This document shows positions 897 through 20,678 of a stretch of 64,000 nt of DNA, in pieces. The position numbers and the translations under genes are program-made. A model generated the notes under the pieces. That model was not told where the DNA came from. It saw only the letters and a program-made list of their open reading frames with translations, and made no database searches. Position 1 is the stretch's first letter. Each line of letters begins with the position of its first letter. This DNA comes from an uncultured Granulosicoccaceae bacterium. GTDB taxonomy: Bacteria > Pseudomonadota > Gammaproteobacteria > Granulosicoccales > Granulosicoccaceae. The stretch is taken from contig CALGKA010000013.1 in the NCBI GenBank assembly GCA_937927895.1, forward strand, positions 62,001-126,000. The letters run 5' to 3'.

Positions 897-1796
897 ATGA
901 ACGAGCTAATCATAAAACTCAAAGGTGAAGTCACCGATACCAACTTTGACGAGTGGAAAAACGAGCTGATCGCACGGGTAAAAAATGTCAATACAGATCT
1001 GGTCAAAGACGAAGACTTCGCCAACGCCGAAGACGATGTAAAAGCCATTAAGGCAGGTGAAAAATCACTAAAAGCGGCAAAAGCCTCGGCGCTGGAACAA
1101 GCTGATGAGATTCAAAAGCTCTTTGCCGCCATTGATGAAGTCTCAGAAGAAGCCAGACAAGCGCGACTCAGTCTCGAGCGGCAGATTAAAAAACGAAAAC
1201 TTGAAATCAAAGAAGAGATTATCGATAGCGGATATGAAGCCATCGAAACCTATTTGAGCGAGCAAAGTGAAGCGTTGCAATCACTCAACCATTCATGGCT
1301 TGACCGGGATTCAATCGAAGAGGCCACCAAGGGCAAGCGAACTTCCACCAGTATGCAGAAAGCAGTCACGACACTGATGGTGAAAATAAAAGGTGAAATC
1401 GCAGACCGCGAAGAGCAGATCAAAGAAAACCAACAAACGCTTAAACAAATAGATAAAAGTTACAGTGCTGTTTTCCAAGACGACGACACACTGGTTCTTT
1501 TAGACGCTGACGAACTTACCGCCACTATCGATGAGCGGATCGAATTTTTTGAAGCAGAAAAGAAAAAACGAGCACCTGAACCGGTAGCCGAAGTGGCCGT
1601 CACTGAGGCAGAAACTCAGTCAGATGAAGAACCCGAAGCAAATGAAGAAGATGACAGTGCGATTCACCCGGCAGATGAATCGCATGTAATTTCTATAGAG
1701 GTTTTCGCGCAAGTAGATGCAGCACAAGAACTATTCGATGAAATCGACGATCGCTATTCTAATCGTGAAATCGTGGGTGAAATCAAGCTTAGCTAG
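897..1796 (+). CDS. Coiled-coil protein resembling phage DUF1351 family
   Basis: A 299-residue, highly charged soluble protein with no signal peptide or membrane segment. Residues 1-130 read as a short beta N-terminus followed by long Lys/Glu-rich helices (KSLKAAKASALEQADEIQ, ERQIKKRKLEIKEE). This is the pattern of DUF1351 proteins, which are mostly annotated in phages. Residues about 215-260 form an acidic Glu/Ala-rich linker. The ATG at 897 follows a weak purine stretch. The final codons and TAG stop lie inside dispersed element copy A. Function is unknown. The DUF1351 assignment is pattern recognition only, and no other phage genes are nearby. Confidence 0.6.
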   Translation: MNELIIKLKGEVTDTNFDEWKNELIARVKNVNTDLVKDEDFANAEDDVKAIKAGEKSLKAAKASALEQADEIQKLFAAIDEVSEEARQARLSLERQIKKRKLEIKEEIIDSGYEAIETYLSEQSEALQSLNHSWLDRDSIEEATKGKRTSTSMQKAVTTLMVKIKGEIADREEQIKENQQTLKQIDKSYSAVFQDDDTLVLLDADELTATIDERIEFFEAEKKKRAPEPVAEVAVTEAETQSDEEPEANEEDDSAIHPADESHVISIEVFAQVDAAQELFDEIDDRYSNREIVGEIKLS

Positions 1797-1966
1797 TGTC
1801 CGTCCATAAACAGCGCGTAGCGAGGTTGTTCCAGGTGCGTGAGATTTTGCCTACTACATGTAGGCGTTTAGTCATTCTAAATAACTACATGTAGTCGGTA
1901 AAAGATTGCGCACCTGGGGCGACCGCAGTAGCGTTCGTTAATGGGTGGGACTAGCTAGCTAGTGCC
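1789..1966. repeat. Dispersed palindromic element, copy A (long form)
   Basis: Outer arms TAGCTAGTGTCCGTCCATAAAC and its imperfect complement ATGGGTGGGACTAGCTAGC enclose the shared core GCGACCGCAGTAGCGTTCG. That core is the reverse complement of the core in copies B and C. Unlike those, this copy holds an extra inner segment that is itself a long palindrome: CCAGGTGCGTGAGATTTTGCC...ACTACATGTAG on one arm, CTACATGTAGTCGG...GCGCACCTGG on the other. The element fills the gap between two convergent genes and provides both stop codons. No ORF is present. It resembles a REP/BIME or MITE-type non-autonomous element. Confidence 0.75.
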
Positions 1967-2722
1967 AAGTTTTGCAAGCTCAGATGCAGTATGGCGTGCA
2001 CCCGCCATGGCAAAGCCATGCTCAGATGCAATATGGAACATTGTCACGCCCAGCTTGTTTAGAGCAGCTGCCGTACTGGTATCGGGTGCGAAAGTAATGC
2101 AGCATTTGTTGTTTGCTTTAGTGGCTACCCCAACTTTGGCAATCGCATCTCTGACGAGCTTATCGTTGATATCCGTAACACCATAACAAACAGCTAAATC
2201 TGCAGGCCCCACAAATAAGGCATCAACCCCTTCTACTGCTGCAATATTCTCGCAGTCATCTACACCTTCAGGTTCTTCAATTTGAACAACCACAACAGTA
2301 TCGTCTTGGCTTTTCTGCAATAGCTCTGGCATTTTCCTGGTAGTAAAACCCGCCCAACGAGTTGAACCTGCATAACCACGACCACCGTGCCCAAAACGCG
2401 ACCACTGCGCGACTTCTTTTGCCTTCTCAACGGTATCAACGTGGGGTACAACAACACCTGTAGCACCACTGTCTAAGACCTTAAGAATTTCATGCCGCTC
2501 ACCAGAGGGCACACGTACTAAGGTTGGAAAATTCAAGGCGTTAGCCACAGCAAGGCAGGCATCAAGACGACCACGGTCATAAGGTGCGTGTTCAGCGTCA
2601 ATCGTTATATAGTCGAGACCGGACAGCGCCATAATTTCGATGATGTCGTGCGATGGAGTTTTAACGAATGTTCCGCTAAGAATATCGCCACGCAGCATTC
2701 GTGTACGTAGACTGTCTGTCAT
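1955..2722 (-). CDS. HpcH/HpaI family class II aldolase
   Basis: A 255-residue TIM-barrel enzyme of the HpcH/HpaI aldolase/citrate lyase family. These metal-dependent enzymes cleave 2-keto-3-deoxy acids, for example 2,4-dihydroxyhept-2-enedioate or 2-keto-3-deoxy-L-rhamnonate, to pyruvate plus an aldehyde. Visible family features are the base in IDAEHAPYDRGRL (His45), Arg70 in LVRVPSG, the metal ligands Glu149 in QIEEPEG and Asp175 in VGPADLA, and full family length. The ATG at 2722 is preceded by AAAGG. There is no aromatic-catabolism cluster here, so the substrate is unassigned. The last codons and TAG stop come from repeat copy A. Confidence 0.88.
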   Translation of the reverse strand: MTDSLRTRMLRGDILSGTFVKTPSHDIIEIMALSGLDYITIDAEHAPYDRGRLDACLAVANALNFPTLVRVPSGERHEILKVLDSGATGVVVPHVDTVEKAKEVAQWSRFGHGGRGYAGSTRWAGFTTRKMPELLQKSQDDTVVVVQIEEPEGVDDCENIAAVEGVDALFVGPADLAVCYGVTDINDKLVRDAIAKVGVATKANNKCCITFAPDTSTAAALNKLGVTMFHIASEHGFAMAGARHTASELAKLGTS

Positions 2723-2782
2723 TTGAATAACCTTTTGTGGGTTAGCTATAGTTATAAATTAATACCTTTGGAGCAAAGTATT

Positions 2783-3952
2783 GTGCTGAATGCAAATAGT
2801 CAACTATTTATAGGGAATTGCCGTAATTGGCTATCAAAAAATCCTATAAAGTGGAAAATATTTTGTTTAGTCTTTTCGTTGTACACACTAAACGCGTGCA
2901 GTGGGGGTAGTCAGAATTTTTCGCAATTTCCAGGTTTTAGCGAATACTTCGCCGCGAATACACCTAACGATCAGCTACCGACAGCCGACGAAATAGCGCT
3001 ACTGGAAAAATACAAACCGACCCTATACAAAGCTATAGATCAAAGAGAACCCATAGACTTCTATAAAGACTATATCAGTCACGGAGAATTATATGTCTCA
3101 GGCAACAAGATCACTAACAACGTAACTGCCGAAATTCTAAACCAGTACTCGGATTATCCCGACACGGTTTTTAAATATACCGGCAACTATAAAGAAAAAG
3201 GTACAACGGTACTCTACGGCCGTATTGATCGACAGGCAGTTGAACATAACGGCGCACAGCATGACATCACCTTTTTAACCTATAACCTGGTTTTTCCCGT
3301 TAGTGGGATTTTAAAAGATTTAGGTTTATTAAAATCAATTGGTCTAGGCATCGGTGGAAACTTAAACGACTGGCATCAGCTTGATCACTATGTTGGTGTG
3401 ACAGTGGCGCTACTAGAAAATACGCCTGTTGCCATGACTTTGCAGCAACACAATTACCACACTACGTATCTAATAAACGATGCAAACCCAACTATTGCTG
3501 TTGATATAGCAGTACGTTCAAACGAAGTCTACCGGCACACCGAAGGGCAAACGAAACATCCTGCAGTAGGGTTTCTATCTGGTGACAATATAGAGTTTTT
3601 AACTACCGGTAAAAATAAACCAATAATGGCTGGTTTTGATGTAACCAATCCACAGGTAGAGGTGAGTTATGAGTTGCTCTTTCTCCCACCAAACGATGCA
3701 TTCTATCAATTCAAAGGCTACTTGGGAAAACATAGGCTGCTACCCGGTCGCAGCGGCCCACCAGGTGCCGACTATGCTACATTACCTGGCCTTATGCCAC
3801 GGGCTTATCGCTTGTTTACAGGCTACCGTTCTACTGATGTAGAAAAAGAAGCAGAATTATTCAATGAATTGTTTGATTGGGAGAACATCGCAGTACGTGA
3901 AAACGCCATTGCACCTTTTCAAGAAAGATTCTTTGACGCAATTAGTCAGTAA
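2783..3952 (+). CDS. Predicted lipoprotein of unknown function
   Basis: The track starts this ORF at a TTG at 2723. I prefer the GTG at 2783, which has GGAG nine bases upstream and yields a type II signal peptide: a basic region (KNPIKWK), a hydrophobic stretch, then lipobox LNAC. Cys39 counted from that GTG would be lipidated, and Ser at +2 suggests outer-membrane sorting by the E. coli rule. The mature part is about 350 residues, soluble, with no repeat or catalytic motif I recognise. It is divergent from the HpcH/HpaI gene and convergent with the PhyH-type dioxygenase (7 nt apart). Function is unknown and the start is uncertain. Confidence 0.6.
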   Translation: MLNANSQLFIGNCRNWLSKNPIKWKIFCLVFSLYTLNACSGGSQNFSQFPGFSEYFAANTPNDQLPTADEIALLEKYKPTLYKAIDQREPIDFYKDYISHGELYVSGNKITNNVTAEILNQYSDYPDTVFKYTGNYKEKGTTVLYGRIDRQAVEHNGAQHDITFLTYNLVFPVSGILKDLGLLKSIGLGIGGNLNDWHQLDHYVGVTVALLENTPVAMTLQQHNYHTTYLINDANPTIAVDIAVRSNEVYRHTEGQTKHPAVGFLSGDNIEFLTTGKNKPIMAGFDVTNPQVEVSYELLFLPPNDAFYQFKGYLGKHRLLPGRSGPPGADYATLPGLMPRAYRLFTGYRSTDVEKEAELFNELFDWENIAVRENAIAPFQERFFDAISQ

Positions 3953-3959
3953 TATTTTA

Positions 3960-4835
3960 TTATGCCGGCGTTTCAAAACCAGTTAGCGGCATATCATCAC
4001 TTCGCACCAACCAGTTGTCTGCAGGGTAGTGACAACTACCATCAATTACATGCAGTGTGTAAGCATGGCGTGAATTATCAGAACGATTAGCACCACTTAG
4101 ATGCGGCAGTTTTCCGTGTAGCAATACCAACGATCCTTTTTTGGCTTCAAGTGCTACAGCCTGAGCCTTCCAATCCGGCTCTTCAATAGCAGTGAACGTT
4201 AGATCACCATTATCATTGCGGTGGAAGCGTTCTTTCAAAGGACCTTTATGTTCGCCAGGTAGTGCATACATGCAGCCGTTTTCAACAGTGGCATCTTCAA
4301 GTGCCACCCAAAACCCGGTACAACTTAGTGGGTCGGTATATAAAAAGGTACTGTCTTGATGGCAGTTAACTTCACCGCCAATACGCGGGGATTTAAATAT
4401 ATACATCGACTGCAGAAGTTTAGGATCTGTATAGCCGATCTGCTGAGCTAATCGATTTAATTTATCTGATCTTGAGAAGCGACTAAATACCGGATCAAGA
4501 TCATGTAAGGCATGGCCTATTTTATTCACTGATTCAGTCGCGGGATACTTTAATTCACCTGACTCGTTTAGCGATTCTGATTCCAGGAAAAATCGTATTT
4601 TATCGCCGGAAGTTTGGAAGTATTCATCTTTTGCGTGACTGTGAGCGGTGGTAGAAAATACACTGCTGAGCGCTGTAATATCGGTTTCCTCTATTAAATG
4701 ATTTGCACGCTCGCGCAGGCTGTCGCATTCTGTATTACTGAAAAATCGCTCAAGCACCAAATAGCCATCACTGTCGTAGGCGGTCAGCATTTCTGAACTT
4801 AACGTTCCATCGTTTGCACACTCAAACCGTTTCAT
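3960..4835 (-). CDS. Phytanoyl-CoA dioxygenase (PhyH) family oxygenase
   Basis: A 291-residue Fe(II)/2-oxoglutarate-dependent dioxygenase of the PhyH family. The iron-binding facial triad is visible as H159-x-D161 (NCHQDSTFLY) and a distal His (about H245, KLPHLSGANRSD), followed by Arg256 that would bind the 2-oxoglutarate carboxylate. Such enzymes hydroxylate small molecules or lipid-derived acids, and the substrate cannot be read here. The ATG at 4835 has AGGGT upstream. It is divergent from a CHK-type kinase gene across about 89 nt, so the two may share a regulatory region. Confidence 0.85.
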   Translation of the reverse strand: MKRFECANDGTLSSEMLTAYDSDGYLVLERFFSNTECDSLRERANHLIEETDITALSSVFSTTAHSHAKDEYFQTSGDKIRFFLESESLNESGELKYPATESVNKIGHALHDLDPVFSRFSRSDKLNRLAQQIGYTDPKLLQSMYIFKSPRIGGEVNCHQDSTFLYTDPLSCTGFWVALEDATVENGCMYALPGEHKGPLKERFHRNDNGDLTFTAIEEPDWKAQAVALEAKKGSLVLLHGKLPHLSGANRSDNSRHAYTLHVIDGSCHYPADNWLVRSDDMPLTGFETPA

Positions 4836-4924
4836 TTTTTTGACCCTGTCTATCAGCTGATTACAATACTGCTTTTCAGTTAGAATACAGGCCCTTTCAG
4901 ATCAAATCCAACTCAGATCACGCC

Positions 4925-5905
4925 ATGCCAGATCTTTGGAAATCCTTAGCGGTTAATCAAACACTCGCTCAAGATGCGCTGAAATTAGAGACTATTCAAT
5001 CGCTTTGGAGCGGTTACGGTGAGATTTTTCGGCTACAACTGATTCCGGAGTCACTCGGTAGCCTTATTGTTAAGCAGGTAACACCACCAACCTCAGAACA
5101 TCACCCGCGTGGTTGGAATACCGACCGATCACAGCTACGTAAACTGCGCTCTTATGAGGTGGAAAGTTATTGGTATACGCAGTGGAGCCAGCACTGCAAT
5201 GACCAGTGCAGAGTCGCTAAGCATATAGGTTCAGCAACCGAGAATTGTCACAGCGTTATTCTTCTAGAAGATCTTGACGCCAGTGGCTATTTTCAGCGCC
5301 ACTCACAACTATTACCAACACAAGCCAAAACTTGTCTTAATTGGCTTGCGCATTTTCACGCACAATTCATGCACTCAACAGCTAATGGTTTATGGCCTAT
5401 TGGAAGTTATTGGCATCTGGATACACGCCCTGATGAATACGCCGCAATGAAGCCTGGTAAAATTAAAACCCATGCACACAAGATTGATCAGCTGTTAAAT
5501 AACTGTGAATATCAGACAATTGTGCACGGTGATGCAAAGGTCGCAAACTTTTGCTTCAACAAAAACAGCACAAAAGCCGCCGCGGTAGATTTTCAATACG
5601 TTGGTGGCGGATGCGGAATGAAAGATGTTGCGTATTTTTTTGGCAGTTGTTTTAACGAACATGAGTGCGAGCAATATGTACCCGCACTTCTAGACTACTA
5701 CTTTGATACTCTTTCAGATGCTTTAACTGATAGAGATATCAATACACTTACGCTTGAAGAAGAGTGGCGAAAAATGTTCGCACCCGCGTGGACTGACTTC
5801 CATCGGTTTTTACTGGGCTGGATGCCTGGACATGCAAAAATACACAGCTATACCGAATCTTTGGCATTAGAAACGCTTGCTTTAGTTGAGGGCCAAAACA
5901 AGTAG
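4925..5905 (+). CDS. CHK/ecdysteroid kinase-like phosphotransferase
   Basis: A 326-residue protein of the aminoglycoside-phosphotransferase/choline-kinase superfamily, closest to the CHK (ecdysteroid kinase-like) branch. The likely ATP-binding Lys is K50 (SLIVKQV). The catalytic loop is IVHGDAKVANF (about 200-209), and the metal-binding DFG-equivalent is VDFQYVGGGCG (about 221). Family members phosphorylate small hydroxylated molecules, and the substrate is unknown here. The divergent neighbour is a PhyH dioxygenase that introduces hydroxyl groups. A hydroxylate-then-phosphorylate pairing is possible but is inference only. Confidence 0.78.
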   Translation: MPDLWKSLAVNQTLAQDALKLETIQSLWSGYGEIFRLQLIPESLGSLIVKQVTPPTSEHHPRGWNTDRSQLRKLRSYEVESYWYTQWSQHCNDQCRVAKHIGSATENCHSVILLEDLDASGYFQRHSQLLPTQAKTCLNWLAHFHAQFMHSTANGLWPIGSYWHLDTRPDEYAAMKPGKIKTHAHKIDQLLNNCEYQTIVHGDAKVANFCFNKNSTKAAAVDFQYVGGGCGMKDVAYFFGSCFNEHECEQYVPALLDYYFDTLSDALTDRDINTLTLEEEWRKMFAPAWTDFHRFLLGWMPGHAKIHSYTESLALETLALVEGQNK

Positions 5906-5918
5906 CCCTTTAAACAGA

Positions 5919-6959
5919 TTACGCAGTCGGATCTTCATCTGTGTTTTCGGTTTCCTCTTGCAACTCATCTAACTGCTCTTCTGATTTATCGAACCAAAGA
6001 CGAGAAACATAGTTATCTTTAGGCCATTGAAGTTCAAATAAGCCAAGCTTTACACCAGTATGACGATCTTTAAGCGATATAAATATTTCCTCTGCTTTGG
6101 CTGTATTGCCAAGCTCGTGTTGCGCTAGACCCTGACTATACATTGCCGTATCAATATAACTGCTATCCGGGTGTTCATCTTGGAGACTCTGTAAATTATC
6201 GTACGCTAACTGGTACTCAGCGTGATCCACCATCTGAATATAAGCGCGCATGTATTTAGCATCGTCTACTAAATAGCTATCACCGTGTTGTCTGAGTAGT
6301 ACATCTAACAATTGCAATGATGCGTATGTATCTCCATCATCGCGCTTGTCTAGTGCTGATTTATACAGCCCAAAGTCACTGCCTGCACCGTATATATCTG
6401 CCTCTTCCAGCAATGGTAGCTTTATCATTGCACGTGCTTTATTGCCGGTTGTGGCACCAGAATTCAGATATTCACGATACATACTACTAGCAGTAACATA
6501 ATCACCTGCTTCTTCATATTCATGCGCCGAGTAATAAAGCGACTCCACCCGGTTTGATCCAACGCCAATAATGGTTTCATAATCAATATCAAGTGACGCT
6601 GTTCTTTGACCACCACCAAGCGGTGAAAATGCCACGTCGATTTCTAGATCATCACCCGGTTCCAACACCATACCTTGTGGAAATTCAGATAGAAAATCCT
6701 CTGGGTTTTCACCTGAAATAACTATGTTATTAATTGGGTAGGTATCGACACCAACGTTGGCAATTCTGAACATTTGCGCCGTACGGCTGCCCACATCTTG
6801 CACACCGTATCGATAATCGGATAACGAGACCTTTAAACCGCTAATCTCTTCAAGCACAGCTGTATCTTCATTGCCACCGGAGCAGGCAGCAAGCAGCGCT
6901 ACAGAGACAAACACCGCAACAGTATTAGCTCGAAAGAATGAATTTCTTTTAGTTGTCAT
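5919..6959 (-). CDS. Lipoprotein with ASH/HYDIN-like N-terminal domain and TPR repeats
   Basis: A 346-residue lipoprotein. The signal peptide ends in lipobox LLAAC (Cys26) with Ser at +2, suggesting the outer membrane. Residues about 40-125 look like an immunoglobulin-like ASH/HYDIN module (FRIANVGVDTYPI, EPGDDLEIDVAFSPLGGGQRT). Residues about 140-305 contain helix pairs with TPR character (YYSAHEYEEAGDYVTASSMY, AQHELGNTAKAEEIF). The C-terminus is acidic. It lies about 50 nt downstream of the HAMP protein gene on the same strand, so the two are probably co-transcribed. A periplasmic scaffold or sensor role is inference. No enzymatic motif is seen. Confidence 0.7.
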   Translation of the reverse strand: MTTKRNSFFRANTVAVFVSVALLAACSGGNEDTAVLEEISGLKVSLSDYRYGVQDVGSRTAQMFRIANVGVDTYPINNIVISGENPEDFLSEFPQGMVLEPGDDLEIDVAFSPLGGGQRTASLDIDYETIIGVGSNRVESLYYSAHEYEEAGDYVTASSMYREYLNSGATTGNKARAMIKLPLLEEADIYGAGSDFGLYKSALDKRDDGDTYASLQLLDVLLRQHGDSYLVDDAKYMRAYIQMVDHAEYQLAYDNLQSLQDEHPDSSYIDTAMYSQGLAQHELGNTAKAEEIFISLKDRHTGVKLGLFELQWPKDNYVSRLWFDKSEEQLDELQEETENTDEDPTA

Positions 6960-7008
6960 GTCTAATCAGTACCAGCTTGAGCAGTGGATTGTCTTACCAA
7001 CTAGAGGA

Positions 7009-7614
7009 TTAAGCTGACGCGTCAGCGGTTTTGAAAAAATCCAATGCTTCACGGCAATTCTGCAGTGACTCCGAAACATCATCAGCATTGGCTGCTGGTT
7101 GATGTTGCAGTTCTTGTAGAGCATCCATCTGGCCTTTAGCATTTGCGATTTGGCGGTTAATGCTAATTACTGCCGATTGCAATGCATCTGATACATCTGC
7201 AAATTCTTTGTCATCATCTGCACGCAGACGAACGTTAAGATTGCCGGCACCAATCTCGTTAAGCGCACGCTTAACTGCTAATAGCGGTGTACCTAGCTTT
7301 CTTATAATGTACATGCTGATCATGCTAGTGACTAATACGTTAACCACAAGCATCATGACTATCCAACGTCCAAGAACGCTCGACATACTAGGAATCTGTT
7401 CGTTTAGCATGGCCATATCTTCCGACACAAACAGCATCGGAGAATTACCAGCCACCAGTTGACCGAGCATACTATGGTACATAGCAGCAAGCATGATCGT
7501 GGTGATCACTAAATAGAGTGTTGCAAACGCAATCACACGACGAATTTCTCGCGCCTGAAAAGTTTTATCTTTAATAAGCGCAAGTAAAAAGAAGGAATCC
7601 GAAGAACGAGCCAT
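7009..7614 (-). CDS. Two-TM HAMP-domain membrane protein without output domain
   Basis: The track start at 7623 is TTG. The ATG at 7614, with AAGG about nine bases upstream, is the better start and gives 201 residues. Counting from the track start, TM1 is about 28-48, a short periplasmic loop about 50-85, and TM2 about 86-107. A HAMP-like linker follows (RKLGTPLLAVKRAL...GNLNVRLRADDD), then a helical tail with heptad-like Leu/Ile. There is no kinase, GGDEF, EAL or chemoreceptor signalling domain. It probably forms an operon with the downstream TPR lipoprotein. It may transmit periplasmic signals to a separate partner. Function is unknown. Confidence 0.72.
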   Translation of the reverse strand: MARSSDSFFLLALIKDKTFQAREIRRVIAFATLYLVITTIMLAAMYHSMLGQLVAGNSPMLFVSEDMAMLNEQIPSMSSVLGRWIVMMLVVNVLVTSMISMYIIRKLGTPLLAVKRALNEIGAGNLNVRLRADDDKEFADVSDALQSAVISINRQIANAKGQMDALQELQHQPAANADDVSESLQNCREALDFFKTADASA

Positions 7615-7814
7615 AATCGACAACCTTGTTAGATCTGGTAACTATCACTAATTTGTCGACTATTCTCAGCACAACTTGATCGCCATTTGATTGACCATTA
7701 CCTAGTGATAGGTATCAATTGTGAACCGTGTCAGTATTGTGTGTAACAGGGCACTATCGGCCGAGGGGTTTTGGTTGATATTCGCGTGTTTTTTCACGCT
7801 AAATACAATGCAAA

Positions 7815-7910
7815 TGGCGGAAGAACGTGGGAGTCGAACCCACTAAACACGTCTAACGCGTTTCATCGGATTTGAAATCCGTGCCCGTCACCGGATCGGG
7901 ATGTTCTTCC
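7815..7910 (-). tRNA. selC: tRNA-Sec (anticodon UCA)
   Basis: On the minus strand the sequence folds as a selenocysteine tRNA. It has an 8-bp acceptor stem (GGAAGAAC/GTTCTTCC), an extended D stem (CCCG/CGGG), an anticodon loop TTTCAAA with anticodon UCA (7873-7875), a long variable arm (AAACGCGTTAGACGTGTTT), a T arm GTGGG-TTCGACT-CCCAC, and an encoded G-CCA end. The 8-bp acceptor stem, UCA anticodon and roughly 96-nt length distinguish it from tRNA-Ser. The organism should therefore also encode SelA, SelB and SelD, which are not in this window. Confidence 0.96.
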
Positions 7911-7978
7911 TAAGCATTAACTATTGTCCGCTTTCTATCATGCTTCATTATCTCACACCAGCGTGATCATACGTCATT

Positions 7979-9601: not shown

Positions 9602-10195
9602 ATGCCATATCAACACAATCTGCAACCCGACTTTGATAACGAGCCGGATTCAAAAAAGCTACCGTCAAACTCACTATCACACGAGATTGAGGAACTGCAA
9701 AACGGCATCAAAGTCGATTTTGATCAAAAGCTAAGTGAACTGTCTGATTTATTGCAACGCTTCAAAGCGCTAGTACTATCTACAGACAAAAAGGCAAGCC
9801 CTGAAGCAGCTAACGAACCGAATGCCTATAGCAGCAACCCAGACTGCGCACCTACACCACAAACTGTTTTCCAAACACAGGTGCAGCATGCAGAGGGTGC
9901 AAAGAAGAATTCGAATGTAGAAATCCCTTTTGAAAAAACACCAGGCGCTGAAGACAAAGAAGATACCCTGGAAGCCTGCAAACCAGTACCGACACTTTAC
10001 ACGGCAGAAACTGCAAGGTTTGAAAATGGTTTATATAAGCTAAACAGCCAGCTGTATAGGTTCCGTCTTGAACTTGATCAGGAGATGGAATTTCGTGAAG
10101 AACCTCTGCATGCGCACTTCAGCCAGCAATCTGAGCTATCTCAGATTTTACAGCAGATGAACGAACGTTCTATAGAAAAATTCCCGGGTCAATAA
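9602..10195 (+). CDS. Hypothetical acidic helical protein
   Basis: A 197-residue soluble protein with no signal peptide or transmembrane segment. Helical segments are likely at about 25-60 (HEIEELQNGIKVDFDQKLSEL) and 140-190, separated by a low-complexity linker rich in Pro, Ala, Asn and Glu. The ATG at 9602 lacks a strong ribosome binding site. Codon use resembles neighbouring genes and the stop lies just before dispersed element copy B, so I take it as a real gene. It is convergent with ubiB. I recognise no family. Confidence 0.5.
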   Translation: MPYQHNLQPDFDNEPDSKKLPSNSLSHEIEELQNGIKVDFDQKLSELSDLLQRFKALVLSTDKKASPEAANEPNAYSSNPDCAPTPQTVFQTQVQHAEGAKKNSNVEIPFEKTPGAEDKEDTLEACKPVPTLYTAETARFENGLYKLNSQLYRFRLELDQEMEFREEPLHAHFSQQSELSQILQQMNERSIEKFPGQ

Positions 10196-10197
10196 TA

Positions 10198-10272
10198 GCC
10201 GCTAACTTATAAACGAACGCTCTGCGGTCGCCACAAGCACGCTACACGTTGTTTATGGATGGGCACTAGCTA
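10198..10272. repeat. Dispersed palindromic element, copy B (short form)
   Basis: It contains the shared core ACGAACGCTCTGCGGTCGCC and the conserved right arm GTTTATGGATGGGCACTAGCTA. The left arm is degraded (GCTAACTTATAAACG). It lies between two convergent genes and overlaps the 3' end of ubiB, whose last codons and TAA stop it encodes. Confidence 0.7.
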
Positions 10273-11947
10273 CAGATTTAAATGCTCGCCTCAAACTCCA
10301 AATAGAGGCGAGCAAAATCAACCATGCCCACAGCGGCACACCAAACAAACGAGCTAGGTTTGGCGATCCCAACACGGTCACGACTGTTGCAGATATAAAT
10401 AACCCAGCTGAACAAATTGCATAGATTGTCGCATTGGCTATTGCTGAATGAGATGATTGTGCGTGGTGTTGTGAACGCGCAAAAGGTTGAGATCTAACAT
10501 TTGAATTTAAGCCTTCTTGCAACCCTCCACTTTGTAAAAACTGATGAACAAGCCCAGGCATCTCTGGCAACATACGGCCCCACTCTGGAACATTCTTTTG
10601 AATCTCACGCAAAACTGTTAACGGGCTATTCTGTTCAATCATAAAGCCTTTTAACACTGGCCTTGCGGTCTTCCAAAGATCTAATTGCGGGTAAAGTTGC
10701 CGCCCCAGTCCTTCTATGTTTAGCAGCGTCTTTTGGAGCAGCACCAGTTGCGGCTGAACTTCCATTTTGAATCGACGGGCAGTTTGAAAGAGCCGCAACA
10801 ACACCTGACCAAAAGAGATTTCTTCTAGCGGTTTTTCGAATATTGGCTCACAAACAGTTCGGATAGATGATTCGAATTCTTCTACTCGAGTATCTGCAGG
10901 TACCCAACCACTATCGACATGTAGGCGCGCGACTTTGTAGTAGTCTTGTTCAAAAAAGGCTAAAAGGTTTTGCGAAAGATAGTGCCGATCTTCTTCAGTT
11001 AATGTACCAACAATGCCAAAATCTACCGCTATATAAGTGGGATCAAGCGGGTTGTCTTCAGAGATAAAAATATTCCCCGGGTGCATATCAGCGTGGAAAA
11101 AATTATCTCTGAATACCTGGGTAAAGAATATATTCACCCCGCGTTCTGCAAGCTTTTCCAGATCATAGCCACGCGCTTTAAGCTCCTTTATGTCAGAGAC
11201 TGGAATACCCCTTATGCGCTCCATTACTAATACATCACCCTGAGTATAGTCCCAGTATATTTCGGGAATATAAAGCTCATCCGAGTCACTGAAATTTCTT
11301 TTAAGCTGCGAGGCATTTGCCGCTTCACGCTGCATATCTAGCTCATCGTAGATGGTTTTTTCATACTCACTAACCACCTCTCTTGGGCGCAAGCGTTTAC
11401 CATCTGACCAAAAAGACGCCGCCATATCTGCCATTAGATACATCAATGATAGATCGCGCGCTATAGTCGATTTTATACCTGGACGCAAAACCTTAACGAC
11501 CACTTGCTCGCCACTGTGCATAACGGCTGCATGAACTTGTGCAATCGATGCTGACGCAAGTGGTGCGCTTTCAAACTGCGCAAATAGTTCTGTTACAGAG
11601 GCACCAAGAGAATCTTCAATACAGGTGATGGATTGACTTGATGGAAAAGGCGGCACTTGATCTTGCAGCAGTGCCAGTTCTATTGCTATATCGTCTGCCA
11701 AAAGATCACGACGTGTGGATAACATTTGGCCGAACTTTACGAATACCGGGCCAAGTTCTTCTAGCGAACGGCGTAGACGCTCCCCACGTGGCAGGCTTCT
11801 GGTTTTATCATTGCGCCAACGATCAGGTGAAATTGATGACAACAGTTTTAATACCGTAGACGGTTTACGGTCTAATAGCAGCTCGTCAATGCCGTAGGTA
11901 AGCAGAACCTTTTGTATCGTGTATAAACGTTTTATGCGGTTAAACAC
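10253..11947 (-). CDS. ubiB: Ubiquinone biosynthesis ABC1-type kinase-like protein UbiB
   Basis: A 564-residue ABC1/UbiB-family atypical kinase required for aerobic ubiquinone biosynthesis, where it acts as an ATPase supporting the UbiE-I lipid-processing complex at the inner membrane. The family KxGQ motif is K71-F-G-Q74, followed by a kinase-like core with [12 protein letters not shown]. Two C-terminal hydrophobic helices (about 500-545) anchor it. The GTG start at 11947 overlaps the ubiJ stop by one base (TAGTG), indicating translational coupling. The C-terminal codons after ...VASAHP fall in repeat copy B, so the extreme C-terminus may have been altered by the element. Confidence 0.95.
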
Positions 11948-12552: not shown

Positions 12553-12581
12553 TGAATTATCACTCAGGAAAATGTCATTCG

Positions 12582-13325: not shown

Positions 13326-13402
13326 TATTTTAGGCTCAGGTTTGGCTTGTGTTTTTTAGCTGGCGTACAAGGTCAACAAATTTGCAACACCGGCTCAAAG
13401 CA

Positions 13403-13819
13403 TTAATCGCGGGATTTTTTGACTTTTCGCTGGTGGCCTGCAGCGACAAGTCTATCGAGATAATCTTGCCAGTAGCGCTCGTAGTTCACTCCTAGCTCAT
13501 GCAAGTAGACCCACGTAAAAATGCCGGAATCATGGCCATCGTCAAAACCGATTTTTAAGGCATAGTTACCAGACGGGGTAATGCTGTCAATACCGACATC
13601 TTCCTTGTTTAGCTGCAGAACTTCTTGCCCCGGGCCATGGCCACGCACCTCAGCTGAAGGTGAAAAAACTCTTAAATACTCACAAGTGAGATTACACTCC
13701 AGACCATCGTCAAAGTGTAGTTCCAGCACACGGCTACGCTGGTGTAGCTTTACCTCAGTCGGTCTGGGAGTCGCTGTTGCTTTAGTGCCTGTGGTGGGCT
13801 TATTTATTGGTGTGCTCAT
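13403..13819 (-). CDS. DUF971 (GBBH-like N-terminal) domain protein
   Basis: A 138-residue protein containing the DUF971/gamma-butyrobetaine-hydroxylase-like N-terminal domain (VLELHFDDGLECNLTCEYLRVFSPSAEVRG, and YALKIGFDDGHDSGIFTW). Stand-alone DUF971 proteins commonly sit beside hslVU and ubiE in gammaproteobacteria and may contribute to Fe-S or metal-related processes, but the function is not established. The first 20 or so residues are a Thr/Pro-rich extension. It starts 11 nt after the hslU stop, so it is likely in the hslVU operon. Confidence 0.85.
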   Translation of the reverse strand: MSTPINKPTTGTKATATPRPTEVKLHQRSRVLELHFDDGLECNLTCEYLRVFSPSAEVRGHGPGQEVLQLNKEDVGIDSITPSGNYALKIGFDDGHDSGIFTWVYLHELGVNYERYWQDYLDRLVAAGHQRKVKKSRD

Positions 13820-13829
13820 GGCTCTAAGA

Positions 13830-15149
13830 CTACAGGATGTATCGACTCAGGTCTTCATCCTGTGACAATTCGCCTAGATATTTATCAACATATTCTGTGT
13901 TTATCGAGATTTCAGATCCACTGTTATCAGAGGCCTCGTAGGAGGCGTCATCAAGTAGTCGTTCAAGCACGGTGTGTAGCCGTCTGGCGCCGATATTCTC
14001 GGTAGTTTCATTCACCTGCCACGCAACTTCCGCAATCCTTTTGATGCCATCATCGGTAAATTTTAGCGTGACATTTTCAGTCGCCAATAGCGCTTTGTAT
14101 TGTTCTGTAAGTGAGGCATTGGGCTCTATTAGAATTCTTTCGAAATCTTCCACCGACAAAGCTTGAAGTTCAACGCGGATAGGCAAGCGCCCTTGCAGCT
14201 CTGGTATTAAATCTGATGGCTTGGTCATATGGAACGCACCAGAGGCTATGAAAAGAATATGATCCGTCTTTACCATGCCGTATTTGGTGCTCACGGTGCA
14301 GCCTTCTATCAGTGGCAGTAGATCACGCTGTACTCCTTCGCGTGAGACATCTGCACCACCGCCACCTGCATCTGATCGTCTTGAGACTTTGTCTATCTCA
14401 TCTAAAAATACAATACCATTTTGCTCTACATTTTCGACTGCCAACTGTTTTAATTCGTCTTCATTCACTAAATTGCTCGCCTCTTCATCGGTAAGCAGTT
14501 TCATGGCTTCAGATATTTTTAGTTTTCGCGTTTGTTTTTTCTCACGCCCCAGATTTTCAAACATTCCTTGCAGCTGCTGAGTCATGTCTTCCATACCGGG
14601 TGGAGTCATGATCTCTACCCCGACACCCTGGGCGTTTAATTCAACTTCTATTTCGGTGTCGTTGAGATCACCTTCACGTAGTTTTTTACGGAACTTTTGC
14701 CTGGTATCAGTTTCTTTATCACTTCCATCACGCGCAGGTGGCAGTAAAATATCGAGTATTTTCTCTTCTGCAGCGTCTTCTGCACGATGGTGAACTTTTT
14801 CTTTTTCCTGTTCACGAGTTTGCTTTATTGCAGCATCGACCAAATCACGAACAATTGATTCTACATCGCGACCGACATAACCCACTTCAGTGAATTTGGT
14901 CGCTTCAACCTTAATAAATGGTGCGTTGGCAAGCCTGGCCAATCTTCTGGATATCTCAGTTTTTCCCACACCTGTCGGGCCAATCATTAAAATGTTTTTT
15001 GGCGTTATTTCATTGCGTAGGTCGGCCGATACTTGCTGGCGTCTCCAACGGTTCCGCAACGCTGTGGCCACTGCTCGCTTAGCATCGGCTTGTCCAACAA
15101 TATGTTTATCAAGTTCTTGAACAATTTCACGCGGGGTCATGGTTGGCAT
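13830..15149 (-). CDS. hslU: ATP-dependent protease ATPase subunit HslU
   Basis: The AAA+ unfoldase of the HslUV (ClpYQ) protease. Walker A is GPTGVGKTE, Walker B is IVFLDEIDK, and sensor 2 is in the C-terminal [14 protein letters not shown]. The track start at 15194 adds 15 atypical residues. I choose the ATG at 15149 ([14 protein letters not shown]), which has AGGTAAC just upstream and matches family N-termini. The C-terminus SRYIL is the conserved tail that docks into HslV. The gene is downstream of hslV (about 86 nt), as usual. Confidence 0.96.
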
Positions 15150-15234
15150 GATGTTACCTGTGTCTAATCTGTATGGCAGTGATCTTAAAGCCACGTCATA
15201 TGGGTTTTAACGAATAGTGTGTCGCTTTGACTAT

Positions 15235-15780
15235 TTAAGCGTCACTTTTAAGAGTTTCAATGGTCAGAGAGCCATTCGTATAAATACAAATATCGGCCGC
15301 AATACCAAGGCTCTTTTCAACAATGTCTTTAGCGCCAAGTTCGGTATTTTGCAGCAAGGCCAAGGCCGAAGATTTGGCAAAATCACCGCCTGAACCGATC
15401 GCAATTAACCCATGCTCTGGCTCAATCACATCGCCGTTACCTGAGATCACTAACGAGCACTTGCTATCGGCCACCGCCAACAGTGCCTCTAAGCGTCTCA
15501 GCATTCGATCGGTACGCCAGTCTTTGGCCATTTCAACCGCTGCGCGGGTTAGATTGCCGCCATATTCTTCAAGCTTGCCCTCGAATCGTTCAAAAAGCGT
15601 AAAAGCGTCTGCAGTGCCTCCAGCAAAACCGGCTAACACGCGATCTTTATATAATCGACGCACTTTTCGCGCATTGCCCTTCATAATGGCATTGCCTAGG
15701 GTCACCTGACCGTCACCACCGATGACTACTTCATCACCCCGGCGAACGGATACGATGGTCGTACCTCGATATTGTTCCAA
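15235..15780 (-). CDS. hslV: ATP-dependent protease peptidase subunit HslV
   Basis: A 181-residue proteasome-like threonine peptidase subunit. Processing would expose the nucleophilic Thr in [10 protein letters not shown]; the [10 protein letters not shown] and [11 protein letters not shown] segments are characteristic. It forms double hexamers capped by HslU and degrades misfolded or regulatory proteins. The start is a TTG at 15780 with AGGAG eight bases upstream. The divergent region to the PilZ-like gene contains a perfect 10-bp inverted repeat near a TACAAT -10 candidate. I see no clear sigma-32 promoter, although hslVU is heat-inducible in E. coli. Confidence 0.96.
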
Positions 15781-15826
15781 TTCTTAATCTCCTGAACTCT
15801 TCTTGGCGCTAGTTTGCACTACACTA

Positions 15827-15858
15827 ATTGTACTGGTTTAAGTACTTTTACTTAAACC
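15827..15858 (-). promoter_or_regulatory. Candidate hslV promoter/operator with 10-bp inverted repeat
   Basis: A perfect inverted repeat GGTTTAAGTA-CTTT-TACTTAAACC spans 15835-15858. On the minus strand a TACAAT (15827-15832) lies beside it, so the repeat covers the presumed -35 region of hslV. No T-tract follows, which argues against a terminator. An operator for the divergent pair is the simplest reading. Confidence 0.4.
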
Positions 15859-15934
15859 TTAAGAATACGCACGGTTGTACCCACATCAACGTGCGGATAC
15901 CAATAGTGGGACAAAGAGGCTATGTGGTCACGCA

Positions 15935-17608
15935 ATGAGTAAAGTTCAAGAAGCAATAGCTAAAATCCGAAGTAAAGTGCGGCCAAACAACACACTTTCG
16001 GAACAGTTACGGATTCCGGTTCAGCAAGAGCACGAAAGCTCTTTATTTCCAGTCGAACCTTCCGAGGTTAAATCGTGGTTAATAGCCCATGGGGTATCGA
16101 ATACCGCTACCAGCGTCAAAACCCTGATTCGAGCTGTACAGCACTGCAACCGCACAGTAATGCCACCGCTTCAGCGTCTGCAAACAATGGAGCATTTCGA
16201 AAAACCATTTTCAGAAACTTTACAATCACTCGATGTGCGCTACCTGCATCTGGCTTTTCCGATGGCGCAAGAGTCTGAGAACGCTTTTCAGCTGGCAGCT
16301 GTAATATGCCAGGAGATGGCCTATGGCTACAAGATAGCGTTGGTTGAATCAATGCGGACGCCAGGAGCGTCGCTCAGAAAAAAACACAAGCAGCAGTGTG
16401 TCTCTCTAGCTCTCGAGCATCTTAGTAATTTAGCGCTACGGCATGCGAAAATTTATAGGCCGTGGCCAAACAGTTTTTGGCAAGATACGAACACTTTGTA
16501 TCAGATAGCTCAAGTTGACCGCACTGAAAAAATTAACAACTTAACCGTTAAAGAAAGCCTTCCACAACATGACAACAAACCACTATCTATAAGCAATCAG
16601 TATGCACGCCTTTGCGTTCTACATCTGCTAAACAATAACCAGTATCAAGCACAACAATTACAAGGCTTATACACTAGCTTAAGCCGATACTCTTCAGAGC
16701 TTACCTTGCAAACAACGCAACAAGGTATTGAGTCTGAAACTTTATATTGTGTCGGCATGAACAATCCACCGCTATTAGCCCAATTTTGTCACTACCAACC
16801 ATCAGACAAACTGGCCTACTTTTCGATCGATAATCTTGTTAAAAAACTGAACGACTATTCACCGGTTGCCAACAGCCAACCTATCAAGATGCGGTCTTTA
16901 CACAACAGATTAGAAGCACGTGCTGCACGCGACAAAGACATCGAAGCGGTAACTGGCATTAAAAATATTCATAAAGAGATCCTAAACCACCCACCTACGG
17001 ATACAGCCGAATCTCAGTTTACAGATCTACGCGAACTAATCGCACAAGGCGGTGCAAGAAACACAGATCTACGACCCGCAAAACTCGGCGACAGCGCTTC
17101 TGAGTTATCGATTGAAAACGAAAGCAAACACGGTTACGGCTTAAAAATTTCAAAGGCCAATGGTCAGATACCTAAAGCGGCGGCACAGGTAGGGGAGTTA
17201 ATTGGCCATAGTTATAAAAGCGACAATGGCGAGTTAAGCTGGTATCTAGGCCAAATCCGCTGGATGATCTCTCACCATGATAAAAGCCACTATTTGGGTG
17301 TTGAACATATTACCCAACATGCCAACGCGGTTGCCGTTTATCGGCTGCAAAAGGATAAACAAAACGAAAATATAGCCATAGACGGATTGTTAGCCAACTA
17401 TCAGTTAGTCGATAGCAGAGCTAAAATGTTACTGCTGCCATTGCATAGGTTTAAGCCAGGTGAAACCGTCGGTTACCGCGACAGTCACGGATTTAACATA
17501 GTGAAATTAATAGAATGTGTAGAGCGCCACGGCAACTTTCAATGCTTTGCGATTATCACTATGACAAACGACGAATTAAGCGACCCGGTTGCAACAGCGC
17601 ACAGCTAA
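15935..17608 (+). CDS. Large protein with C-terminal PilZ-like domain
   Basis: The ORF-track start at 15875 is a TTG without support. The ATG at 15935 (MSKVQEAIAKIRSKV) gives 557 residues. Most of the protein is helical and unrecognised. The C-terminal ~170 residues resemble a degenerate PilZ c-di-GMP-binding barrel: basic/acidic lead-in RPAKLGDSASELSIENES, then HGYGLKI in place of the usual (D/N)xSxxG-G, then IGHSYKSDNGELSWYLGQIRWM. The PilZ call is tentative because the canonical RxxxR is not clear. There is no signal peptide or TM. It is divergent from hslV and convergent with xerC. Function is unknown. Confidence 0.55.
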   Translation: MSKVQEAIAKIRSKVRPNNTLSEQLRIPVQQEHESSLFPVEPSEVKSWLIAHGVSNTATSVKTLIRAVQHCNRTVMPPLQRLQTMEHFEKPFSETLQSLDVRYLHLAFPMAQESENAFQLAAVICQEMAYGYKIALVESMRTPGASLRKKHKQQCVSLALEHLSNLALRHAKIYRPWPNSFWQDTNTLYQIAQVDRTEKINNLTVKESLPQHDNKPLSISNQYARLCVLHLLNNNQYQAQQLQGLYTSLSRYSSELTLQTTQQGIESETLYCVGMNNPPLLAQFCHYQPSDKLAYFSIDNLVKKLNDYSPVANSQPIKMRSLHNRLEARAARDKDIEAVTGIKNIHKEILNHPPTDTAESQFTDLRELIAQGGARNTDLRPAKLGDSASELSIENESKHGYGLKISKANGQIPKAAAQVGELIGHSYKSDNGELSWYLGQIRWMISHHDKSHYLGVEHITQHANAVAVYRLQKDKQNENIAIDGLLANYQLVDSRAKMLLLPLHRFKPGETVGYRDSHGFNIVKLIECVERHGNFQCFAIITMTNDELSDPVATAHS

Positions 17609-17628
17609 AACCTGGCCCTGTTTGGCTG

Positions 17629-18624
17629 TTAGCCGTTGGCTTCTTCTTTTCCGTCTACGATATCCGTTAAAGAGGCATTCGACTTACGTGATGCCCTGGG
17701 GTGTGAACGCTCATAAACACGTGCTAAATGTTGAAAGTCTAAGTGCGTATAAACTTGCGTGGTATTGATATCAACATGGCCTAATAATTCTTGTACAGCA
17801 CGTAGATCACCGCTTGATTCAAGTAAATGACTAGCAAATGAATGGCGTAATAGATGCGGATATACATTATGGGAAATACCGGTACGCGTGGCGAGTGTTT
17901 TAAGTCTTTGCTGTACACTGCGCGCTGATAATCGAGTACCTCGTTTACTTAAAAACAGGGCTTGATCAGTCGCTGCACCTTTTTGCAATTCCGCGCGCCG
18001 ACTTTTCCATTCACTGACTGCATTTAAGGCCGCCTTGCCAACCGGCAGATTGCGAGCTTTGGAACCTTTACCCACTACCCTCACCATACCCGCCTGCATA
18101 TCAATGCTATCAACATCAAGCTGAATAACTTCTGCGAGTCGTAAACCACAAGAGTAAATTAATTCAAACAACGCTCGATCACGAAGGATAAGTGCATCAT
18201 CACCCTTCAACGCAAACAGGCGTTGGATATCTTCTATTTGTAACGTTTCGGGGAGCCCCGGGTGGTCTTTCGGTGCAGGTACATCCGCCACCGGATTAAC
18301 TTCAATGTGCTTATGCTTAATTAAATACTTAAACAATGAACGCACCGCTGATAAGCGCCGTGCCAAACTTCTACCTGATAGACCCTGCCCGTGTTGACTT
18401 GAAATCACCGTACGCATGTTAAATGCATTGGCGCCGGACCAATCTGCCACTTTAAGATTGTTAAGCGCACCTGCGACCTCTTCCAGGTCATGACGATAAT
18501 TAGCAACCGTATGCGGTGAATAGCGTTTTTCTATAGCCAGATAATTACAAAAAACTTCAATCGCATTATCAAAGTCTACCGCTTCATTGGCTTTGGCCTT
18601 AGCGCGGGCGTTTTGGCTTGTCAC
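17629..18624 (-). CDS. xerC: Tyrosine recombinase XerC
   Basis: A 331-residue tyrosine recombinase acting with XerD at dif to resolve chromosome dimers. N-terminal SAM-like DNA-binding domain, then catalytic residues R162 (CGLRLAEV), K186 (GKGSKARNLP), H257-x-x-R260 (HLLRHSFASH), H283 (LLGHVDI) and nucleophile Y292 (TQVYTHL). The start is GTG at 18624. Position immediately after DUF484 and dapF (30 nt) is the conserved gammaproteobacterial xerC context, which supports XerC over XerD or an integrase. The C-terminal tail after ERSHPRA is slightly longer than usual. Confidence 0.94.
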   Translation of the reverse strand: MTSQNARAKAKANEAVDFDNAIEVFCNYLAIEKRYSPHTVANYRHDLEEVAGALNNLKVADWSGANAFNMRTVISSQHGQGLSGRSLARRLSAVRSLFKYLIKHKHIEVNPVADVPAPKDHPGLPETLQIEDIQRLFALKGDDALILRDRALFELIYSCGLRLAEVIQLDVDSIDMQAGMVRVVGKGSKARNLPVGKAALNAVSEWKSRRAELQKGAATDQALFLSKRGTRLSARSVQQRLKTLATRTGISHNVYPHLLRHSFASHLLESSGDLRAVQELLGHVDINTTQVYTHLDFQHLARVYERSHPRASRKSNASLTDIVDGKEEANG

Positions 18625-18654
18625 TGCTTACGGCTTACGTAGCGTGGCAAATGA

Positions 18655-19443
18655 CTAGTAGAAAACCGCAAGTCTGGCACTTAACAGTGCACCAAATCGC
18701 GCTAGAAAATCGGTACCCATGTGAGGCGCGAAACGCTCGCGATCGGTGCTCGCAAGCGCTAAGTATCCAAATTCTGTTATTTTCTCGTCTGGCATGCGCG
18801 TAAGTTCTGCGCTGCCTTCATCTGAACTCACAATCGGCTGCACCGAAGTAGTGGTATTGGCCAACCTGATTATTGCTATCGATTTTATTTCAGACGCCTC
18901 TTGCGGAAAGAACTGCTCTACTCGATTTGAGATTGGATAACCGCAATACACAGAACGCCTGGAATGTAGATCTCTCATTGACGAACATTCCTTTGCATCA
19001 GCAAGTTTTACATAGTCTGATAATCCATCAGAGCAAAGATCTATCACGTCATTTTGTAGAATAACCGCTGTACTAAGCTGACAACGAAGTCTCTTTATCA
19101 GTACCGTTCTTGTAAAGGTGAATACCTCAGCCAGTGAGCCTGCAGACATCAAACCCATAGAGTAGTCATGCAGCAATTCTGACAAGTGATCATTTTGGTG
19201 TGCAACTTCGACAATTTCAGCAAGTCGATTTTGCAGTTCAGCAAATTGCTCACGCTGCAGGGATTGTCTTTTCTCAACCAAAGACACAGCACCGCGTTGA
19301 TGATGCGGTACTTCAAGTTCCAATAGCAGGTGTGGGTTTCGGGCAAAGAAATCCGGGGTATCACGCAGATAGTCAGCTACATAACCGTCGCCATCAAACG
19401 CCTGTTCCTCTAGGACTAATGTGCTTTTATTACTTGTTATCAT
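18655..19443 (-). CDS. DUF484 family GAF-like protein
   Basis: A 262-residue DUF484 protein. The N-terminal motif VADYLRDTPDFFARNPHLLLELEVPH is diagnostic, followed by a coiled-coil (about 60-95) and a GAF-like domain. DUF484 genes nearly always sit between dapF and xerC, and the biochemical role is unknown. The ATG at 19443 overlaps the dapF TGA by four bases (ATGA), so translation is coupled. Confidence 0.92.
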   Translation of the reverse strand: MITSNKSTLVLEEQAFDGDGYVADYLRDTPDFFARNPHLLLELEVPHHQRGAVSLVEKRQSLQREQFAELQNRLAEIVEVAHQNDHLSELLHDYSMGLMSAGSLAEVFTFTRTVLIKRLRCQLSTAVILQNDVIDLCSDGLSDYVKLADAKECSSMRDLHSRRSVYCGYPISNRVEQFFPQEASEIKSIAIIRLANTTTSVQPIVSSDEGSAELTRMPDEKITEFGYLALASTDRERFAPHMGTDFLARFGALLSARLAVFY

Positions 19444-20270
19444 TGTTCTAGCCTGCCTTCAAATACCGTTTCGCTCGGCCCAATCATTTCAATCTGGGCA
19501 TCGTTATCTAACCACTGAATTTGCAGTTCACCACCTGCAAGATGCACGCTCGCTCGTCGATCAAGCAATCCCTGAGCTACACCCACCACAACGGCTGCAC
19601 ATGCACCTGTCCCACAGGCCATCGTTTCGCCTACTCCACGTTCAAACACTCTTAATTGAATCTCTGAACGACTTACTACTTGCATAAAACCAGCGTTAAC
19701 CCTATTCGGAAATCGCTCATGACTTTCTATCAACCGCCCAAGTCGTTCGACTTCGGCACGCTGTACGTCTTTAACTTGTGTGACCGCGTGTGGGTTCCCC
19801 ACTGCCACCACTCCAAATTCCATATTCTGTCCATCTACTTCTATGTCGTAGCTGGTAGCTGCTGTATCAGCGACAAAAGGTATATGCGCCGGTTCAAAGC
19901 TCGGTACACCCATGCGCACCATGACTTGATTCGCCTCTAATACCGTCAGTTCGATCAAACCGCCTGACGTTGACACCGTGATGTCTTTTTTGCTTGTTAA
20001 CCCTCTGTCTGTCACGAAGCGCGCAAAACAGCGAGCACCGTTACCGCAGTTTTCTACTTCACCGCCATCAGCGTTGAAAATGCGATAAGTAAAATCCGCA
20101 CCTGTGTCATCAGGTGGCTCGACTATCAACAACTGATCAAAGCCAATTCCAAGACGCCGATGCGCTAGCCGTGATATCTGCTTGCTTGTCAGCTCAAACG
20201 CCGACTCCAAAGCATTGATAACTATGAAATCGTTGCCCAAGCCGTGCATTTTGGTGAACTCAAGAGGCAT
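19440..20270 (-). CDS. dapF: Diaminopimelate epimerase
   Basis: A 276-residue PLP-independent racemase converting LL- to meso-diaminopimelate for lysine and peptidoglycan synthesis. The two catalytic cysteines are C75 (NADGGEVENCGNGARCF) and C219 (ETMACGTGACAAV). Length and the N-terminal KMHGLGNDFIV motif are typical. It lies downstream of lysA, though 410 nt including dispersed repeat C separates them, and overlaps DUF484 by 4 nt. Confidence 0.97.
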   Translation of the reverse strand: MPLEFTKMHGLGNDFIVINALESAFELTSKQISRLAHRRLGIGFDQLLIVEPPDDTGADFTYRIFNADGGEVENCGNGARCFARFVTDRGLTSKKDITVSTSGGLIELTVLEANQVMVRMGVPSFEPAHIPFVADTAATSYDIEVDGQNMEFGVVAVGNPHAVTQVKDVQRAEVERLGRLIESHERFPNRVNAGFMQVVSRSEIQLRVFERGVGETMACGTGACAAVVVGVAQGLLDRRASVHLAGGELQIQWLDNDAQIEMIGPSETVFEGRLEQ

Positions 20271-20603
20271 TGAGCTAGCTGACCTATTTTGAAAATGACG
20301 CCGTTACTACAGGCGAAGAATGTTAAAGTAAAAAATCACCTATAACGACTAGATTATTGTTTTTTATACTTTTTGTAAGAAACCAACAACACTGATTACC
20401 TACAATTACACCGGCCTAAACAAATCTATAGACGAAGATTCGCGGCTTCGCAGAGACTTTTGACAGTTTCGCCACTTTATTGACGAACAGGTGAAAACCT
20501 AGCGATGCAACCAGCGAATAAATTCGCAGGTGACAGCGGCTAAGCTTGCAAAGAGGAGAGGTAAGTCGAGGGTGTTAGCAGGTACAAAGGCACTAGCTAA
20601 CAG
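20271..20603. other. Intergenic region upstream of dapF
   Basis: Together with the repeat copy that follows, about 410 nt separate dapF from lysA. This part has AT-rich sequence and small hairpins such as GCGAAT-AA-ATTCGC near 20515, but no ORF of note. A promoter for dapF-DUF484-xerC is expected. I could not identify a convincing -35/-10 pair. Near 20589-20613, GCACTAGCTAACAGTAGCTAGTGC is a short palindrome built from the repeat's terminal sequence. Confidence 0.4.
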
Positions 20604-20678
20604 TAGCTAGTGCTCATCCATAAACGAACGCCACTGCGGTCGCCCCAGATACGCTGTTTATGGACGGGCACTAGCTAA
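20604..20678. repeat. Dispersed palindromic element, copy C (short form)
   Basis: The best-preserved copy. Left arm TAGCTAGTGCTCATCCATAAAC and right arm GTTTATGGACGGGCACTAGCTA are near-perfect inverted complements (about 20 of 22 positions), enclosing GAACGCCACTGCGGTCGCCCC. It lies two bases beyond the lysA stop codon. An additional outward half-arm (GGCACTAGCTA, 20588-20598) suggests a second, partly lost unit or insertion next to an existing copy. Confidence 0.78.

Follow-up and report, generated by a model that had tools for sequence, protein, structure and literature searches.

A dispersed palindrome in a genus of Granulosicoccaceae as a probable ISNCY-mobilized MITE with a predicted one-strand RNA hairpin

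Three palindromic sequences in the window, a 64,000-nucleotide stretch of DNA from an uncultured Granulosicoccaceae bacterium, appear to be copies of a non-autonomous MITE that is moved in trans by an ISNCY-type transposase, targets NARYTA hexamers and carries an RNA-type hairpin on one strand. We give this explanation as a whole a probability of about 0.87. The element has the features by which MITEs are recognized: it is ~169 bp long, within the 70-300 bp range of such elements, and non-coding, it has terminal inverted repeats and many dispersed copies, and its ends are common to an autonomous IS.

A first-pass annotation of the window had proposed a palindromic family with three copies (A, B and C; Table 1). 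The family is real, since the arm motif matches four times within the 64 kb and not at all in 100 shuffled sequences, which rules out chance for all three copies. The accompanying description, in which every copy has both arms and a core with a 3-nt spacer, applies to copies A and C but not to copy B, whose left arm is eroded; TAGCTAGTGC is missing there, and the spacer in the core has 2 nt instead of 3. The arms of copy C are 22 nt long and 91% complementary. In agreement with the annotation, the ORF list contains no reading frame that covers the element (copy A), and all three copies lie at gene 3' ends. Copy A sits between two convergent genes whose stop codons are both within its ends: the gene at 897-1796 stops at a TAG (1794-1796) made up of the end of the lower-coordinate hexamer plus the following G, and the HpcH-like gene (1955-2722, minus strand) has its stop inside the other hexamer. 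Copy B is likewise flanked by convergent genes (9602-10195 and 10253-11947). Copy C begins 3 bp from the stop codon of a lysA-like gene, and its other side faces the 5' side of a dapF-like gene. Two further end motifs also occur nearby: TAGCTAGTGCC is probably the remnant end of a neighbouring copy, and GGCACTAGCTA is a probable remnant of another.

Table 1. Element copies, target hexamers and solo end motifs in the window
Feature	Position	Strand	Basis
Copy A, full-length element including both flanking hexamers	1790..1957	+ (strand forming strong RNA hairpin)	profile match 174.7 bits, model 1-168
TAGCTA target hexamer, one side of copy A	1790..1795	.	sequence
TAGCTA target hexamer, other side of copy A	1952..1957	.	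sequence, ORF list
TAGCTAGTGCC, second overlapping hexamer and end motif	1956..1966	.	sequence only; inside the span first assigned to copy A
Copy B, short form, left arm eroded, right arm intact (10251-10272)	10198..10272, start approximate	-	match 10209-10272 to short-form query, 78%
Copy C, 74-bp short form, both arms and both hexamers (20604-20609, 20672-20677)	20604..20677	-	sequence
GGCACTAGCTA, solo end motif 5 bp from copy C	20589..20599	.	sequence only

Full-length copies measure ~169 bp including the flanking hexamers, and shorter forms of ~75 and ~138 bp also occur. The inverted ends are 22 bp long, and the whole element is palindromic. Most of the complete copies span 156-158 bp from GTG to CAC, plus one hexamer per side. 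From TAGTG to CACTA the short forms fall into classes of 66-73 and 128-130 bp versus 161 bp in full copies, and because these classes recur they are treated as subfamilies. A pattern search of the genome that contains the window (G000; 4.55 Mb, 168 contigs, 92.6% complete) returns 90 + 95 end motifs, compared with 1 + 1 for a control with the reversed pattern, and the genome has about 90 copies. The genome-wide check proposed with the first annotation thus turns up far more than five copies (185 end motifs, 2 in the control), and the palindromic symmetry is kept. Many copies are located at contig ends, where a repeat that interrupts assembly would be expected. Solo ends on two contigs (G000:C54 and C68), considered as possible ends of an autonomous element, proved to be truncated copies only.

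BLAST recovers relatives of the element from 11 of the 13 other members of the genus and gives weak matches in three sister-genus genomes. With a covariance model trained on 49 copies, the element is detected in 13 of the genus's 14 genomes and, elsewhere in the order, in 3 of the 34 genomes searched. Plasmid and phage collections yield no matches to the element; one IMG/VR contig has a bare end motif only. An Rfam search of the window gives no family at the gathering score for the element; its only match is a selenocysteine tRNA gene (tRNA-Sec) at 7819-7910 on the minus strand (RF01852, 68.3 bits).

The ends and the target site point to an autonomous partner. Among the DDE_Tnp_1 genes of the genus are those of ~1.68-kb ISNCY-type ISs in two genomes (G012 and G010), which have TARYTA-GTGCCCATCCA at both ends and encode ISNCY transposases (NF033593, 396.7 and 389.2 bits; cut-off 325). 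More full-length ISs with the same kind of ends occur in two sister-genus genomes (G068, and three in G057) and on a Marinobacter plasmid. Exact 6-bp direct duplications flank the sister-genus ISs (CAATTA, GAGCTA, CAGCTA and TAGCTA); the duplication is TAGTTA in G012 and TAGCTA on the plasmid, and the G010 IS has unequal hexamers (TAATTA and TAGTTA). Four of these duplications are non-palindromic, so the duplication is direct. Because ISs with the same ends carry exact 6-bp direct duplications, the TAGCTA that had originally been assigned to the arm termini is very probably the duplicated target and not element sequence. The similarity between MITE and IS is confined to the terminal 16-22 bp, and the interiors are unrelated. 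In G012 an ISNCY element abuts a MITE copy with one common TAGTTA between them, and an IS on the Marinobacter plasmid likewise adjoins the end of a second IS through one hexamer.

An ISNCY-type transposase very probably moves the element, a role for which the shared ends and target argue strongly. In the proposed mechanism, an ISRm17-like DDE transposase of this type would be supplied in trans, bind the element ends (GTGCCCATCCATAAAC...) and insert the element at a NARYTA hexamer (N usually T), duplicating 6 bp. The ISNCY gene has no match in the window's own genome (92.6% complete) or in several element-rich genomes, such as G013. The copies in the window's genome consequently look orphaned, and mobilization is deduced across genomes; the search for a transposase that shares the arms succeeds in relatives and finds none in the genome of origin. 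Between the two classes first suggested for the element, MITE is supported by the IS in relatives that has matching ends and duplicates 6 bp, and REP/BIME is set aside because no link to Y1_Tnp is found. The annotation could match the element to no family by name; its partner can be named as an ISNCY-type IS. A partner of the IS630/DDE_3 type was rejected, as DDE_3 is absent from the window's genome and from 11 of 14 in the genus. The IS630/Tc1-type class of TA MITEs (ERIC, NEMIS, RUP) was also rejected because arrays are spaced by 6 bp and the ISs duplicate 6 bp, not TA. Readings as an integron attC, a dif/Xer site or an IS200-like element were likewise discarded.

The flanks of the MITE copies agree with this target. 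TAGCTA is present at 59 of 87 ends, and the remaining ends have TAATTA, TAACTA or a few other hexamers; beyond the hexamers there is no conservation apart from a preference for C at position -7. Where the hexamer is non-palindromic, it is mostly a direct repeat (8 direct versus 2 inverted, counted by hand). Neighbouring copies have exactly one hexamer in common. The members of an array belong to different subfamilies or have opposite orientations, so they represent separate insertions and not tandem duplications. The hexamer left on both sides of each insertion could serve as a fresh target, which would produce arrays of independent copies one hexamer apart. A duplication of TA only, whether the inner or the outer one, is contradicted by the array spacing and by the 6-bp duplications of the ISs. 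One array of three copies (G000:C92:2411-2912) contains a 10-bp spacer, TAGCAAGCTA, instead of the usual single hexamer. Unequal hexamers (TAATTA versus TAGCTA) surround the near-intact copies at G000:C58:9800-9968, C61:2229-2397 and C49:353-520, and they may result from mutation, recombination between copies or misassembly. For the MITE itself, comparison with orthologous loci yields no empty site that is clean at the nucleotide level.

None of the 127 copies examined lies inside an ORF. Other TARYTA hexamers in the window are mainly genic (39/53), so the absence of copies from genes reflects selection and not a shortage of targets. Convergent genes flank 32 of 87 copies, compared with 10 of 53 gene pairs in the window (p about 9e-5 by a simple binomial, with genes taken as mechanical ORFs and arrays not independent), and 19 of the 87 lie between divergent genes. 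Neighbouring stop codons fall within an element end in 41 cases, and in 38 of these the hexamer contributes to a TAG stop. Together, TARYTA and the adjoining G of the element contain TAG in two frames, so that an element inserted at a stop codon would restore a stop; this restoration, combined with selection against gene disruption, would leave copies at gene 3' ends. Without an element at that site, the G007 and G003 orthologues of the gene preceding copy A still end in Leu-Ser-stop, which fits an origin of the hexamer in TTAGCTA(G) as the last codons of that gene.

The body of the element is an imperfect palindrome that appears to be maintained as RNA. The predicted RNA fold of copy A has an energy of -98.1 kcal/mol (z -12.7) on the + strand and -66.3 (z -7.1) on the other; with DNA parameters the two strands give -43.0 and -39.3. 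The same strand is more stable in 81 of 82 full copies, and the mean gap is 27 kcal/mol with RNA and about 7 with DNA energies. When 49 copies are aligned, two-sided compensatory changes occur at 19 of 36 pairs, and among them are exchanges of A-U for U-A and of C-G for G-C. Cells with two-sided changes number 122, versus 34 in shuffles and 12-28 in slid controls, although the structure itself comes from this alignment, and its sequences are related to one another. G-U pairs on the same strand are fixed by column (UG 46/49, GU 47/49 and GU 40/49; GU 73/82), and a GA/GA internal loop is conserved in the hairpin. The outermost stem is unpaired in the RNAalifold consensus, though paired in single copies. 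The covariation and strand-specific G-U pairs are read as a constraint on RNA: one strand would be kept as a long RNA-type hairpin through compensatory changes and fixed G-U pairs.

The orientation of the element relative to genes is unbiased (14 versus 22 copies), which disfavours a simple 3'-UTR benefit to one neighbour, and the constraint may therefore serve the element itself. We tentatively suggest, at somewhat less than even odds, that selection across the genus keeps the MITE body for a role as RNA, which would make it a mobile functional RNA in the form of a ~160-nt hairpin transcribed from one strand. If transcribed, the hairpin might act as an RNase III-type processing or stability element; it might be processed by RNase III, stabilize mRNA or control the transposase in trans, to name some candidate roles. 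In that case the G-U pairs would permit a strong hairpin in the RNA while sparing the DNA a perfect palindrome, which would be dangerous; the DNA palindrome would stay imperfect and so tolerable in replication.

Arm-to-arm correction in quasi-palindromes is an established process that could account for part of this pattern. Template switching in replication would keep the arms alike and would yield two-sided changes, which are not independent among related copies, and the strand asymmetry would be inherited from a founder copy. However, correction of this kind should leave well-matched pairs on either strand and remove the same-strand G-U pairs. These are nonetheless retained at fixed columns, and the conserved GA/GA internal loop is not something that the correction predicts. 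We consider this explanation unlikely. It is less plausible still that the copies are host-serving 3'-end elements, either bidirectional terminators or mRNA stabilizers, that spread by selection for that role. Their enrichment between convergent genes and at stop codons and their strong hairpin would be expected of such elements, but orientation is unbiased although one strand alone folds well, the consensus has no U run after the hairpin, and 19 of the 87 copies separate divergent genes. The IS-type ends and target duplications, moreover, account for the spread without host benefit.

It is very improbable that the palindrome is of a REP/BIME-like or IS200/IS605-like kind, for which a tyrosine (HUH, RAYT) transposase would move the folded strand as single-stranded DNA. 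This reading draws on the conserved one-strand hairpin, on the Y1_Tnp genes in the window's genome and on a hexamer that is apparently more variable on one side of the copies in that genome (about 13 versus 4, hand count). Against it, Y1_Tnp is absent from the element-rich genomes G001 and G013 (the latter 98% complete), no Y1 gene is bounded by element ends, the ends are those of DDE-type ISs with true 6-bp direct duplications, and the strand preference is far larger with RNA than with DNA energies. RAYT/Y1 was rejected as a partner because it neither tracks the element nor is flanked by its ends.

As an ISNCY-linked MITE, the element resembles the ISNCY ISs (NF033593; ISRm17-like) in its terminal repeats (GTGCCCATCCA...), its probable 6-bp NARYTA duplication and its insertion beside its own ends, but it is gene-less, unrelated in its interior and palindromic over its entire length. 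Nearest in kind are YPAL and ERIC. The Yersinia palindromic sequences (YPAL) are ~167 bp long, palindromic, intergenic and MITE-like and form a stable RNA hairpin (PMC2759123, PMC2267715). The element shares their palindromic form, intergenic location and RNA hairpin and is nearly equal in size, and a comparison by eye with the one RU-2 sequence printed in PMC2759123 reveals no likeness. Duplications of TA are reported for YPAL/ERIC-type repeats (PMC2759123), whereas the partner ISs of the element duplicate 6 bp. ERIC and NEMIS MITEs are small, non-coding and gene-adjacent, have terminal inverted repeats and fold as RNA (PMC3733652); the element shares these traits but differs in its ends, in the target reported and in its link to ISNCY. 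The REP/BIME and TIR families of RAYT/TIRYT transposases are dispersed palindromes that are clustered and often downstream of genes (PMC3733652). The element is likewise a dispersed, clustered palindrome, but it has no tyrosine transposase link and is much longer than the 20-40 bp REPs.

A literature search of limited reach returned no ISNCY-linked palindromic MITE of this type, and such reports may exist. The MITE is likely an ordinary kind of thing that is newly identified here with a likely autonomous partner and a target rule: a high-copy palindromic MITE linked to an ISNCY transposase with a defined 6-bp target, which supplies a simple reason why repeats of this kind sit on stop codons. 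What sets it apart is an unusually clear one-strand RNA signature, from which a function is inferred. Covariation together with strand-specific G-U pairs makes selection on the RNA of a transposon-derived repeat separable from selection on a DNA palindrome, so the old question of an RNA role for bacterial MITE hairpins can be put to a direct test.

The window's genome also contains other mobile-element genes. An IS1182-family transposase gene (NF033551, 439.5 bits) is located on contig G000:C134 (L225 1444-2895, minus strand), and the start of an ORF at the end of contig G000:C13 (L072 1873-2080) resembles, by eye only, the N-terminus of an IS30-type transposase (MPQYHHITNEERFYIW...). Two RAYT-like Y1_Tnp genes are intact (G000:C127:8940-9278 and G000:C13:151064-151402; L071 and L072), and a third is broken (L073). 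A second dispersed palindrome family, of GGAAACCCACAAGCGTAAGCGTGGGACT and GGAAGCCCGCCAGCGTTAGCGAGGGACT types, occurs in the same genome (L052 1510-2300; L011 400-640; L072 700-920). In L072 it lies near the Y1_Tnp gene, and this second, short family is probably the true REP-like family of the genome.
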